NCBI RefSeq assembly: GCF_900100705.1
Contig: NZ_FNCH01000004.1
Span: 1 to 64,000, forward strand
Direction of reading: 5' to 3'
DNA: 64,000 nt
From: Pedobacter terrae
GTDB taxonomy: Bacteria > Bacteroidota > Bacteroidia > Sphingobacteriales > Sphingobacteriaceae
Shown here: positions 1-45,474 of the stretch, one piece after another
How the letters are laid out: each line of letters opens with the position of its first letter
Numbering within the stretch: the stretch's first letter is position 1
The notes under the pieces: model-generated
Told to the model about the DNA's origin: nothing
Database searches by the model: none
The model's input: only the letters and a program-made list of their open reading frames with translations
Translations under genes and position numbers: made by a program

Positions 1-63
1 GAAGTTAAGCCCACCAGAGCCGATGGTACTGCGGTAACACGTGGGAGAGTAGGTCGGTGCCAG
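1..63 (+). rRNA. rrf: 5S ribosomal RNA, 3' part (cut by window edge)
   Basis: The first ~63 bases match the conserved 3' half of bacterial 5S rRNA: the GAAGTTAAGC loop, the GCCGATGGTACTGCGG arm and the GGGAGAGTAGGTCGGTGCCA end. The 5' half lies outside the window, so the left edge is the tail of an rRNA operon on the + strand. The 3' end is placed by similarity and may be off by a base or two. Confidence 0.93.
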
Positions 64-150: not shown

Positions 151-805
151 TTCTACCATTGAGGAGTTAGGAAAAGTTAAGGGTTTGCTCCCGCAGATTA
201 CGCTGAGTTCCACAGAGACCATTCCATCATCCATTCCCCATCTTACTTTGTTTATTCTTCTTCTATCCCCGGTTAAATAGCCCTGATGGGAGCGGTATCT
301 CTTTTGGGATGAGGTTATTTGTGTAACAGATAAAGTTTCCCAAAAGGATAAAGCGTACCGCAGGACGGAACCCAACCTAAGGGTACAGGAAACTGCGCTC
401 CAGAACCAGAAGCCTTTCTACCATTAAGGAGTTAAGAAAAGTTAAGGATTTGCTCCCGCAGATCGCGCTGATCTCCGCAGAGACCATTCCATTATCCATT
501 TCTATTCTTAGCTGGTTTATTCTTCTTCTGTCGCCGGTTAAATAGCCCTGATGGGAGTGGTATCCCTTTTGGGTTAGGTATGTTTGTCTAACAGATGAAC
601 TTTCCCAAACGGATTGCAAGCGTACAGCAGGACGGAACCCAACCTATGGGTAGGAAATTGCGCTCCAAAACTAGGAGCATTTTCTACCATTGAGGAGTTA
701 AGAAAAGTTTAGGGTTTGCTCTCGCAGATTACGCTGATCTCCGCAGAGGCCATTAACAGCCCTGGACCTAACCTAGGGGCACAGGAAACTGCGCTCCAAA
801 AATGA
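151..805. repeat. Three tandem copies of a ~265 bp intergenic repeat
   Basis: Each unit begins TTCTACCATT(G/A)AGGAGTTA: copy A at 151-415, copy B at 416-681, and copy C from 682 to about 805. Copy C lacks the central ~140 bp. Units share a CCGCAGATTACGCTGA-type block, then a structured block beginning AGCCCTGATGGGAGCGGTAT with an inner hairpin (CTTTTGGGA pairing TCCCAAAAG), then GATAAAGCG and a terminal GCGCTCC. Open frames across it on the minus strand differ between copies and do not look like a protein family. The repeat fills the whole gap between the 5S terminator and rlmN. The structured block recurs near 44.3-44.9 kb. Confidence 0.85.
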
Positions 806-41840: not shown

Positions 41841-43949
41841 TTGGATATTAAAGTTGCATTAGTTGGTAATCCCAATACAGGTAAATCTACTTTATTTAAC
41901 CGTTTAACAGGGTTAAATCAAAAAATCGGAAACTTTCCAGGCATTACTGTTGATAAGAAAACGGGTTTTACAAAACTCGCAGACGGTAAAGAAGCCGAGA
42001 TTATCGATTTACCAGGAACATATAGCTTATATCCGAAAAGTGCTGATGAAAGCATCGTTTTTCAGGTGCTTGCCGATAAAAAAAACAACAGCCATCCTGA
42101 TGTCATTGTACTCATCGCCGATGCTTCGAATTTAAAGCGCAATATGCTTTTGTATTCGCAAGTGGCAGATCTGGGCATCCCGATCATTTTAGCACTTAAT
42201 ATGATCGATCTTTCTGCTAAGCAGGGGATTGAGATTAATCTGGATAAACTGTCTGAAAAATTGGGGATCCAGGTGGTTTCCATCTCAGCAAGAAATAACA
42301 TTGGGATTGATAAGCTGAAACAAGCCATTGCCAATACCAATAAAATTGCCACGCAGTACCAGGACGTAGATGTGAATTTTCTGGCTCCGGAAGCGATTAA
42401 TGCCATAAAAGCCAGGCTTAATTCCGATAACGATTATTACGCGCTACAAGTGCTGCATCAGCACGAACATTTAACTTTTTTTACCGAAAAGGAACAGGAA
42501 GAAATTGAACATATTGAACAATCACACCATTTCGAATCTGCTAAAATTCAGGCTGCAGAAACCATTGCCAGATATAAACGTCTAAGCACTATTTTATCTG
42601 ATGTGGTTATTGACAATGGCACGGAAAAGAAATTTTCTTTCAGTGATAAACTGGATGCTGTTTTAACACACAAGGTTTGGGGATTTGCTATTTTCTTGCT
42701 TATTCTCTTTGTCATTTTCAATGCGATATTTGCCTGGTCATCCTATCCAATGGAATGGATTGAGACTGGTTTTGGTTTGATGACCAGCACTGGACATGAA
42801 TATTTGCCTGCAGGCATGCTTACCGATTTGTTATTGGATGGCGTAATTGCTGGTTTAGGTGGTATTTTTGTTTTTATTCCGCAGATTGCCATTCTTTTCG
42901 CATTCATATCCATTTTAGAAGATACGGGTTACATGGCCCGTGTTACCTTTATGATGGATAAAGTGATGAGTAAAGTTGGACTTAACGGTAAATCGGTAGT
43001 GCCCATGATCGGTGGTTTAGCCTGTGCTGTTCCGTCTATTATGGCTGCCAGAAATATTGAAAACTGGAAAGATAGAATGATTACCATCATGGTTACGCCA
43101 TTGGTAAGCTGTTCGGCAAGACTCCCGGTATATATTTTAATTATTTCCTTAATTATACCTTCTAAAACCGTTCTTGGCATTTTTAACCTGCAAGGTTTGG
43201 CGCTAATGGTAATGTACCTGGTAGGCATTGTTGCTGCGGTGCTGGTAGCGTGGGTAATGAAATTTATCATTAAAACGAAGGAAAGGTCTTATTTTATCAT
43301 GGAGTTGCCCGTTTACCGCATGCCAAGGTGGAAAAATGTGTTCTACACCATGTACGAAAAATCGAAAACCTTTGTTTTCGAAGCTGGGAAAGTAATTATT
43401 GCCATTTCCATCATCCTTTGGGTAATGGCTTCTTTCGGACCGGGAAACCGATTTGAAAGTATTGATCAAAAATATGAATCTGCCCTGGCTGATACCACAA
43501 AAAATACCGATCACATTAAAACTTTAATGGCTACCGAGAAGCTGGAAAACTCCTATGTGGGCATTCTTGGGCATTGGATAGAGCCTGCTATCCGTCCTTT
43601 GGGTTACGATTGGAAAATTGGTATTGGTTTAATTACTTCTTTTGCGGCCCGTGAAGCTTTTGTGGGTACAATGGCTACCATTTATAGTGTTGATGGTGGT
43701 GATGAAGATACTTCAACGATAAGAGAGCGTATGTCGGCTTCGGTTAATAACCGTACTGGTCTGCCCGTTTATACTTTTGCTACAGGTATTTCACTGATGC
43801 TTTTTTATGCCTTTGCTATGCAGTGTATGAGCACCGTTGCTATCGTTTACCGCGAAACGAAAGGTTGGAAATGGCCGGTAATTCAGTTGGCTTATATGAC
43901 GGCTATGGCCTATGTTGCTGCGCTGGTGGCTTATCAGCTTTTGAAATAA
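41841..43949 (+). CDS. feoB: Ferrous iron transporter B
   Basis: 702 residues. N-terminal G domain: GNPNTGKST (G1, 9-17), IGNFPGITVDKKTG (switch I), DLPGTYSL (G3) and NMIDL (G4). A linker and about eight membrane helices with two Gate motifs follow (GLACAVPSIMAARNIENWKD, ITSFAAREAFVGTMATIY). It takes up Fe(II) across the inner membrane under GTPase control. The start is TTG at 41841 (DIKVALVGNPN). No FeoC is present, as usual outside Gammaproteobacteria. Confidence 0.96.
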   Translation: MDIKVALVGNPNTGKSTLFNRLTGLNQKIGNFPGITVDKKTGFTKLADGKEAEIIDLPGTYSLYPKSADESIVFQVLADKKNNSHPDVIVLIADASNLKRNMLLYSQVADLGIPIILALNMIDLSAKQGIEINLDKLSEKLGIQVVSISARNNIGIDKLKQAIANTNKIATQYQDVDVNFLAPEAINAIKARLNSDNDYYALQVLHQHEHLTFFTEKEQEEIEHIEQSHHFESAKIQAAETIARYKRLSTILSDVVIDNGTEKKFSFSDKLDAVLTHKVWGFAIFLLILFVIFNAIFAWSSYPMEWIETGFGLMTSTGHEYLPAGMLTDLLLDGVIAGLGGIFVFIPQIAILFAFISILEDTGYMARVTFMMDKVMSKVGLNGKSVVPMIGGLACAVPSIMAARNIENWKDRMITIMVTPLVSCSARLPVYILIISLIIPSKTVLGIFNLQGLALMVMYLVGIVAAVLVAWVMKFIIKTKERSYFIMELPVYRMPRWKNVFYTMYEKSKTFVFEAGKVIIAISIILWVMASFGPGNRFESIDQKYESALADTTKNTDHIKTLMATEKLENSYVGILGHWIEPAIRPLGYDWKIGIGLITSFAAREAFVGTMATIYSVDGGDEDTSTIRERMSASVNNRTGLPVYTFATGISLMLFYAFAMQCMSTVAIVYRETKGWKWPVIQLAYMTAMAYVAALVAYQLLK

Positions 43950-44086: not shown

Positions 44087-44781
44087 CTTGAGGGGTAATT
44101 TATTGAATAAAAATCAATATGGTAGACTGATAAAAACAAACCCTTAGGAATAATCTTAATGCCAGCGTTTTAAGACTAGCTTCGCTGAGCATTTCGTGGT
44201 TCCCGAATGTGCGAGAATGGTAGCGTAGTCTGAGGGCCTCCAATAAGCATGATGATTAAGATTGGGAGAGCATGGCCTGTATAGCTATCTATGTTTCTTC
44301 CCGCTTTCCGTTTTATCCCGATGAAAAATCGGGATGTTCACTCTAATCGGGTCTATGTGGCCCATGGGGTGGTTCTATTTTTGGCTGGGTGCTTAACTAC
44401 ATAAGCTACTGCTCTAGGTATAATAACGCTCTTCTTCATGCTCTTAGTTATTCCTCCTTGAGGGATAATTTATTGAATAAAAATCAATATGGTTGACTGA
44501 TAAAAACAAACCCTTATGAATAATCTTAATGCAAGCGTTTTAAGATTAGCTTCGCTGAGCACTTCGTGGTTCCCGCATGTGCGAGAATGGTTAGCGTAGT
44601 CGGAGGGCTTCCAATAAGCATGATGATTAAGATTGGGAGAGCATGGCCTGTATAGCTATCTATGTTTCTTCCCGCTTTCCGTTTTATCCCGATGAAAAAT
44701 CAGGATGTTCACTCCATCCGATTGCTATCGGATCGGGTCTATGCGGCCCATTGGGTGGTGCTATTTTTGGCTGGGTGCTTA
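44087..44781. repeat. Direct duplication of a ~310-325 bp non-coding segment (period ~370 bp)
   Basis: Copy 1 (44087-44395) and copy 2 (44457-44781) align nearly end to end: TTTATTGAATAAAAATCAAT, CAAACCCTTA(G/T)GAATAATCTT, TTAGCTTCGCTGAGCA, AAGCATGATGATTAAGATTG, GGGAGAGCATGGCCTGTATA and GGCTGGGTGCTTA. Copy 2 carries a ~19 bp CCGATTGCTATCGGAT-type insertion with its own small hairpin. Each copy holds the structured module in reverse orientation. A 60 bp AT-rich stretch separates the copies. No transposase or conserved protein is encoded. Confidence 0.85.
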
Positions 44782-44803
44782 TTGCACAAATCTTTGTTCC
44801 TAA

Positions 44804-44870
44804 ACCCGGTAGAAGCGGCAGCCCCCGATTGCAATTCGGGGCTATAGCGGATAACGGGGCTGCTGCTCCC
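44804..44870 (+). repeat. Forward copy of the AGCGG-hairpin-TATAGCGGA-GCTCC module
   Basis: The core reads GTAGAAGCGGCAGCC, a hairpin (CCCCGA/TCGGGG), then GCTATAGCGGATAACGGGG and GCTGCTGCTCC. The same layout occurs in units A and B of the array near 0.3-0.7 kb, and reverse-complemented at about 44298-44351 and 44668-44737. It resembles a repeat often seen between genes in Bacteroidota, from memory and not checked. Confidence 0.6.
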
Positions 44871-44997
44871 GAAACCCTACTGAACGTTCATTTTCAAATA
44901 AGCAATCGCTAAAGGTTTTTACCATATAATATATATCCCGTCATCCAAACGCATGTATGATTACAGAGATTATGGGTTTCACCTTTAGTCTTTCCGA

Positions 44998-45474
44998 TTA
45001 CCCTAGTTCAATCTGTCTCTTAATGCTTTCTTCCAGTGATATTAAAGTCTCTGTCCGTTGAATACCGTTCACTGCTTGTATCTCTTCATTTAAAACATGG
45101 CGCAAATGGTTGGTATCCCTGCAGATAATTTTAGCGAACATACTATAGGCACCTGTAGTATAATGTAATTCTACCACCTCCTTAATTTTGCTCAGTTGTG
45201 CAACCGCATCTTTATACTGGATTCCTTTTTCTAGGTAAATGCCTAAAAAGGCGCAGATATCATATCCAGCCTTTTGCGGATCAATAATCAGGTGCGAACC
45301 TTTTATAATACCCATTTCCTGCAGTTTCTTCATCCTAACGTGTATCGTGCCACCAGAAACAATCAGATCTTTAGCGATTTCTGTATAGGGTTTGGTAGCA
45401 TCCTGCATCAATTGTTTCAATATATCGATATCAAGGTTGTCAATTTCTAAATTGGAATTGTCTTTTTTAAGCAT
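44998..45474 (-). CDS. Lrp/AsnC-family transcriptional regulator
   Basis: 158 residues: N-terminal AsnC-type HTH (LDIDILKQLMQDATKPYTEI, GTIHVRMKKLQEMGIIKG) and C-terminal RAM/Lrp effector domain (YDICAFLGIYLEKG, HYTTGAYSMFAKIICRD). Such proteins sense amino acids and form octamers. It is divergent from the tRNA-like pair, so the 156 bp between them holds both promoters. Confidence 0.93.
   Translation of the reverse strand: MLKKDNSNLEIDNLDIDILKQLMQDATKPYTEIAKDLIVSGGTIHVRMKKLQEMGIIKGSHLIIDPQKAGYDICAFLGIYLEKGIQYKDAVAQLSKIKEVVELHYTTGAYSMFAKIICRDTNHLRHVLNEEIQAVNGIQRTETLISLEESIKRQIELG

Follow-up and report, generated by a model that had tools for sequence, protein, structure and literature searches.

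The DNA analyzed here, referred to as the window, comprises positions 1-64,000 (forward strand) of Pedobacter terrae contig NZ_FNCH01000004.1. At about 44 kb, the convergent genes feoB (41841-43949, plus strand) and an Lrp/AsnC gene (44998-45474, minus strand) enclose a head-to-head doublet of a structured module that also recurs in an array near the start of the contig. A cmscan search against Rfam identified this module as Flavo-1 (RF01705), a catalogued hairpin motif of the Bacteroidota. Of the five window copies matched by the RF01705 model, two scored above its gathering score of 42 bits, one scored just below it, and two were weaker:

275-371, plus strand: Rfam Flavo-1 match, 52.4 bits, above gathering (cmscan)
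540-638, plus strand: Rfam Flavo-1 match, 45.5 bits, above gathering (cmscan)
44293-44358, minus strand: Rfam Flavo-1 match, 40.8 bits, E 4.9e-7, 1.2 bits below gathering
44664-44730, minus strand: Rfam Flavo-1 match, 22.5 bits, E 0.053
44798-44865, plus strand: Rfam Flavo-1 match, 33.9 bits, E 3.9e-5

We then used a longer covariance model, R1, made from 36 Flavo-1 copies of the P. terrae genome. Each of the five full window copies reached an E value of 9e-8 or better with R1, although some of them are among the 36 copies used to make the model and their R1 scores are consequently not independent. The "guide" and "tail" triplets listed here are explained below and were taken directly from the sequence:

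274-406, plus strand: Flavo-1 copy A, R1 73.9 bits; guide AGC 279-281, tail triplet GCT 397-399
539-671, plus strand: Flavo-1 copy B, R1 69.4 bits; guide AGC 544-546, tail triplet GCT 662-664
753-802, plus strand: partial sixth Flavo-1 copy in the same array as A and B, R1 25.2 bits, E 0.0033
44260-44359, minus strand: Flavo-1 copy, R1 72.5 bits; guide AGA 44354-44352, tail TCT 44269-44267
44631-44745, minus strand: Flavo-1 copy, R1 44.4 bits; guide AGA 44740-44738, tail TCT 44640-44638
44797-44900, plus strand: Flavo-1 copy, R1 55.1 bits; guide AAA 44802-44804, tail TTT 44891-44893
44631-44900, both strands: head-to-head doublet of the two preceding copies, 5′ boxes facing and tails outward
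44088-44781: direct duplication of about 370 bp, with units at about 44088-44395 and 44459-44781 (ends approximate, placed by eye), each carrying one minus-strand Flavo-1 copy

The preliminary description of this DNA had reported one module in two far-apart loci and in both orientations, and had guessed that it might be Flavo-1. The guess was right, and the recurrence is confirmed by the copies matched with Rfam and R1; what does not hold is the restriction to two places, since the covariance-model search that the description had suggested gave at least 150 matches in the genome. The array end of the window begins with what we take to be the end of a 5S rRNA gene (window 1-62); the same presumed end opens two other contigs (L018 1-62 and L019 1-62), the three being identical over these 62 nt, and after it each contig runs into Flavo-1 copies spaced about 250-265 bp apart. 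Within the 44-kb doublet, a short palindrome (44718-44731) sits inside the 5′ box of the minus-strand copy 44631-44745, and palindromes lie at about the same point of the 5′ box at three other places in the P. terrae genome (C18:659, C49:383594, and C33:175786), as though other small palindromes land in the Flavo-1 hairpin.

With R1, the at least 150 matches in the P. terrae genome include at least 141 with an E value of 1e-5 or better; with RF01705, the best 150 of 1260 candidates gave at least 88 matches at E 10 or better and at least 45 above gathering. Two 400-kb blocks from other Pedobacter genomes, fully scanned, contained 46 and 28 copies, which by extrapolation suggests that a Pedobacter genome probably holds several hundred, one of the blocks being a dense part of its chromosome. 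Flavo-1 was present in 74 of 119 sampled Pedobacter genomes, 61 of the 74 having at least 10 among the matches listed (best 36 candidates per genome), and 45 of the 119 had none at E 0.001. Across the class, where the best 11 candidates per genome were considered, it was found at E 1e-5 in 120 of 395 genomes and 56 of 196 genera. Carriage by viruses was considered and rejected: in IMG/VR, 53 viral contigs carry the pattern and two of these have R1 matches. Using ORFs of 100 aa or more as gene stand-ins, we placed 144 of the P. terrae R1 matches: 121 lie between ORFs, 12 at stretch edges, and 11 inside ORFs that are 101-129 aa long and of uncertain reality. A facing 5′ box was found at most 130 nt upstream in 15 of 70 anchored copies, as judged with a loose pattern lacking a chance control. 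A search of the two 400-kb blocks for a self-mobile element, in the form of an ORF between Flavo-1 copies, produced a single 1-4 kb interval with two long ORFs, one of which is presumably KsgA.

The 5′ part of a Flavo-1 copy consists of a T, a triplet (AAA, AGC, or AGA), CC[C/T]G, AT, a purine-rich mismatch, and a 2-bp stem. A second purine-rich mismatch follows, and then a tip whose length and sequence vary from copy to copy. The 3′ part contains the partner strand ending in AGCRGG, a spacer, and the tail TGC-NNN-YC followed by A's; the GCTCC end of the module had been seen correctly in the preliminary description and is now read as the region of the pairing tail triplet. The description had also held that the hairpins vary in sequence while keeping their pairing, and the alignments support this: across the 36 P. 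terrae copies, 94.6% of 429 cells pair, stem and guide-tail counted together, and the covariation score is 0.612, compared with 0.222 for shuffles and at most 0.149 with slid partners. None of 500 shuffles matched either value, and we take the covariation to be real. A wider set of 95 copies, drawn from three species, has 92.4% of its cells paired and a covariation score above that of every shuffle; one of five measures was null, the further pair types in these 95 copies being no higher than in shuffles (255/500). The two innermost modelled pairs fit poorly, with 73.6% of cells paired in the 36 copies and 62.1% in the 95. The A.G mismatch of the stem appears as G.A in 13 of 148 non-redundant copies. 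RNAalifold recovers the stem unaided and adds, as its lowest pair, a C-G pair adjoining the guide triplet, which places that triplet against the foot of the hairpin. Among four window copies, predicted single-strand DNA folding was exceptional in just one, 274-406 (z −3.45); it was alike on both strands.

The new result is covariation between two triplets, one immediately 5′ of the hairpin foot and the other in the 3′ tail, at a distance of 5 to about 35 nt from the hairpin. The Rfam structure lacks this pairing and shows neither the foot triplet nor the tail as paired. In the 36 copies, aligned with MAFFT, the combinations are AAA-TTT in 17, AGC-GCT in 13, AGA-TCT in four, and AGA-GCT in one, with one copy ending before its tail; most of these tails were chosen by a pattern blind to the guide, independently of R1. 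The candidates behind this set comprised 47 with a 5′ box and a recognized tail, 23 with a box and no tail pattern, and 14 without a box. Variant tails are visible in most of the 23 box-only copies. In an R1 alignment of the 138 P. terrae copies scoring at least 40 bits, the foot triplets are AAA (91), AGC (33), AGA (12), AAC (1), and AGG (1), and the combinations are AAA-TTT in 88, AGC-GCT in 33, AGA-TCT in nine, AGA-GCT in three, and others in five. A mutual-information scan was run on 148 non-redundant copies (218 offered, of which 168 passed the anchors), with tail positions supplied by R1, a model that already contains the guide-tail pairing. The two variable guide-tail pairs, at 18.2 and 12.6 sd and 99% and 96% Watson-Crick, ranked among the top seven column pairs, the other five being pairs of the stem. 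No coupling between the 60 nt upstream and the element was seen among the 45 best column pairs of the same copies. Independently of R1, 13 top hits from other genomes, nine of them outside the genus, were found with the tail-free Rfam model, and by eye the tail matches the foot in 12, the exception being L079. The spacing is not fixed: hairpin and tail triplet are about 5 nt apart at six f54 loci and one f22 locus, and 25-35 nt apart elsewhere.

To follow individual copies between species, we collected 24 loci carrying both genes that flank the 44-kb site, where the P. terrae FeoB is 96% identical to that of P. suwonensis. Flavo-1 occurs in 20 of the 24, two being duplicates of others, and is missing from four (L101, L106, L107, and L108); the loci were gathered by similarity to the window, which favors occupied sites. 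Copies lie on both sides in 16 of the occupied loci and on the feoB side alone in four. In an alignment of 37 copies from 18 loci, AGA/TCT was found in 18 of the 22 feoB-side copies (the others being AGC/GCT, AAA/TCT, TGA/TCT, and AGA/CCT, one each) and AAA/TTT in 14 of the 15 Lrp-side copies, the remaining one having a gap. Box type is thus retained on each side while the tip varies; for the most part this reflects simple conservation, and compensatory changes are few. On the Lrp side, identity across 14 loci is 85% and 93% in the boxes, 87% in the tail, 70% in the tip, and 60% in the flank past the tail; in the orthologous feoB-side copies, the innermost modelled pairs are unformed and the stems are otherwise mostly kept. 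Two other Pedobacter genomes (G026 and G106) have about 25 bp in place of 44093-44622.

Between genomes G040 and G051, the matching site was occupied for 14 of the 16 G051 clusters and 14 of the 19 G040 clusters for which occupancy could be judged, the comparison leaving out one and three clusters, respectively; orientation was the same in all six one-to-one pairs, and few sites in the compared blocks were species specific. Retention of most sites by the compared species counts against claiming present mobility. Copy number does change within sites: one site has three copies in P. terrae, one in G051, and four in G040, another has six versus ten alternating copies, and such changes look like local growth and loss. 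Flavo-1 sites are absent in some species, and we found no clean empty site or target duplication in three site alignments, the edges not being clean. In 2-4 Mb of G040 contig 1, Flavo-1 is sparse among the matches listed, with 16 of 111 clusters in 2.0 of 6.4 Mb.

We consider it about an even bet (probability near 0.5) that Flavo-1 is a single-strand DNA element of REP-like character that is inherited vertically and has a putative protein partner. This reading is favored by the combination of a foot triplet at a mismatched hairpin with a complementary site at variable distance, the two changing together, in line with the guide rule for the ends of IS200/IS605 elements (PMC8266576); given the guide-tail rule, a folded single-strand DNA element seems a closer description of Flavo-1 than a small RNA gene. 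The element would act at the DNA level, like REP sequences or the ends of IS200/IS605 elements. One strand, when single stranded, would fold into an imperfect hairpin that has short stems with purine-rich mismatches and a tip that can be exchanged; the triplet abutting the foot on its 5′ side would serve as a guide, pairing with the complementary tail triplet 3′ of the hairpin and so presenting the tail, as a putative cleavage site, to the protein that may recognize it. The most likely candidate for that protein would be an HUH-type nuclease or transposase acting on single strands, or an enzyme domesticated from one. We found no such partner among the RAYT-like and IS200-type genes of P. terrae, which fail the neighbor test described below. 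Further points against this reading are that no clean empty site was found, that predicted folding was exceptional in just one of the four window copies, and that the replication-strand bias expected of lagging-strand elements is absent among the matches from the best 150 candidates of the single-contig genome G040.

The main rival is a structured RNA, with guide and tail forming the outer helix of a small RNA domain, either cis-acting or an sRNA. Covariation alone cannot separate folded DNA from RNA, and an outer RNA helix predicts the same guide-tail covariation; the strength of the covariation, including the A.G to G.A swaps, and the stems mostly kept at orthologous sites also fit an RNA. 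Rfam types the family "Gene; sRNA", a 2022 review places it among the most abundant sRNA families (PMC9029176), and the table of Weinberg 2010 rates it "y" (probably) as an RNA and "n" (probably not) as cis-regulatory (PMC2864571). In the transcriptome of Flavobacterium psychrophilum as described in PMC9723704, Flavo-1 hits fall on several of the 5′ transcribed regions, yet the hits show no clear sense or antisense preference and many lie outside transcribed regions. The signals expected of RNA genes are likewise not apparent in P. terrae. The −7 box of Bacteroidota promoters is TAnnTTTG. Upstream of Flavo-1 this box, the one promoter type sought, was not clearly enriched (6/138 versus 7/138 in the control), nor was a run of five T's after the tail (11/138 versus 7). 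Orientation is near random with respect to ORFs: the ORF on the 5′ side points toward the copy in 68 of 121 cases and away in 53, and clusters lie between convergent (27), divergent (20), or co-directional (44) ORFs. Cis-regulation was rejected on this orientation and ORF context. G-T/G-U pairs account for 15 of 1032 standard pairs (1.5%), compared with four of 62 in the acceptor stems of nine tRNAs from the same data, a small sample. The "repeated ncRNA" of the preliminary description is thus weakened by the unenriched promoter and terminator signals and the near-random orientation, while the covariation is still compatible with it, and we regard a structured RNA as rather unlikely.

That Flavo-1 is the REP or REPIN of a RAYT of these genomes, for example of Bacteroidetes subclass 2.6, which is described as having atypical flanking structures (PMC6006769), appears quite improbable. 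The P. terrae genome has nine Y1_Tnp genes, eight of them RAYT-like (L090-L097). In a scan of seven (all but L093 and L094, near copies of L092), four exceeded the NCBIfam RAYT cut-off (L090, L091, L092, and L095), L096 and L097 fell below it, and L089 passed the IS200 model. Two RAYT-like genes stand in tandem at C34:142412 and 143285. RAYT/Y1 genes, which the preliminary description had proposed looking for, are therefore present, but no Flavo-1 was detected in the roughly 1.5-kb flanks of any of the eight RAYT-like or nine Y1_Tnp genes (one flank being ended by a contig end), where about one match was expected by chance near the eight; the best R1 match in the flanks, at 17.0 bits (E 0.047), skipped over most of the model. 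By eye, seven of the eight adjoin other palindromes. Co-occurrence in the genus sample (both Y1_Tnp and Flavo-1 in 64 genomes, Y1_Tnp only in three, Flavo-1 only in 10, neither in 42) speaks for a link but likely comes from shared ancestry, and class-wide it is weaker, with an odds ratio of 3.3, or 2.3 for genomes with at least five copies. In two of the 10 Flavo-1-only genomes (G037 and G090), counted as Y1 negative, a second model picks up RAYT-like genes at scores under its cut-off, and no Flavo-1 lies beside these genes in the two fetched loci; G099 and G363, rated 100% complete, hold many copies with no RAYT match above noise. A local RAYT/Y1 protein as the cognate enzyme, examined by neighborhood, flank reading, and co-occurrence, is not supported for P. 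terrae. Of the "REP-like" character that had been suggested, the high copy number, intergenic position, some head-to-head pairs, and guide-like foot remain suggestive, and the RAYT link is not supported. A double-stranded or cruciform binding site of a chromosome-organizing protein, without cleavage, would account for many sites between ORFs that are mostly common to species, the lack of an orientation rule, and the sharp differences in presence between species; it leaves unexplained why guide and tail must match while their sequence changes, and we think it unlikely. It is very improbable that Flavo-1 is an inert relic of an old mobile element: the failure to find a partner protein and the few species-specific sites in the compared blocks would suit a relic, but in orthologous copies the boxes and the match of guide to tail are better preserved than the tip and the flank.

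The 2010 publication of Flavo-1 assigned it no function. From the guide-tail rule come a testable criterion for a DNA element and an improved model with which to search for copies. Our broadest proposal, which we put forward tentatively, is that a family ranking with the most widespread of those catalogued as bacterial "sRNA" may consist of single-strand DNA elements, distributed across the Bacteroidota, with a three-letter guide code and matching tails, served by a putative single-strand nuclease distinct from the known RAYTs and IS200 transposases; if true, this would be a new branch of REP/IS200-type single-strand DNA systems, with its own enzyme to find. Titles and abstracts on Flavo-1, RAYT, and REP in Bacteroidetes, mostly from outside subscription papers, contained no link of Flavo-1 to REP/IS200-type elements, nor did the Flavo-1 passages of PMC2864571, PMC9723704, and PMC9029176. 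The table of a 2025 REP survey includes two Flavobacterium genomes (PMC12306157).

Among known systems, the window copies share the boxes, stems, and variable tip of Rfam Flavo-1, and the evidence here for the sRNA class assigned to that family is poor. Integron attC sites also have an imperfect hairpin with a variable terminal part and form tandem arrays, as Flavo-1 does. Flavo-1 resembles REP sequences and REPINs in its many copies between genes, some in inverted doublets, and in a hairpin with a foot motif. GGAG is an alternative REP foot tetranucleotide beside GT[AG]G. Unlike REP/RAYT systems, the 138 copies scoring at least 40 bits have no GTAG or GGAG foot, the unit is longer, the tip is interchangeable, and no RAYT lies beside the copies. 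Doublets appear to be a minority among the Flavo-1 copies judged with the loose pattern, whereas REPINs, as described in PMC3116915, are mostly inverted doublets. The subterminal hairpins of IS200/IS605 elements, according to PMC8266576, likewise have a foot triplet directly 5′ of a mismatched hairpin and complementary to a 3′ site, with complementarity in IS608 being mixed where the Flavo-1 guide forms three Watson-Crick pairs. Flavo-1 differs from IS200/IS605 in having no transposase gene inside it and no clean insertion edges. Its guide and tail are complementary and covary, in the geometry of the IS200/IS605 guide and cleavage site, and by this analogy the Flavo-1 tail may be where a strand is cut.
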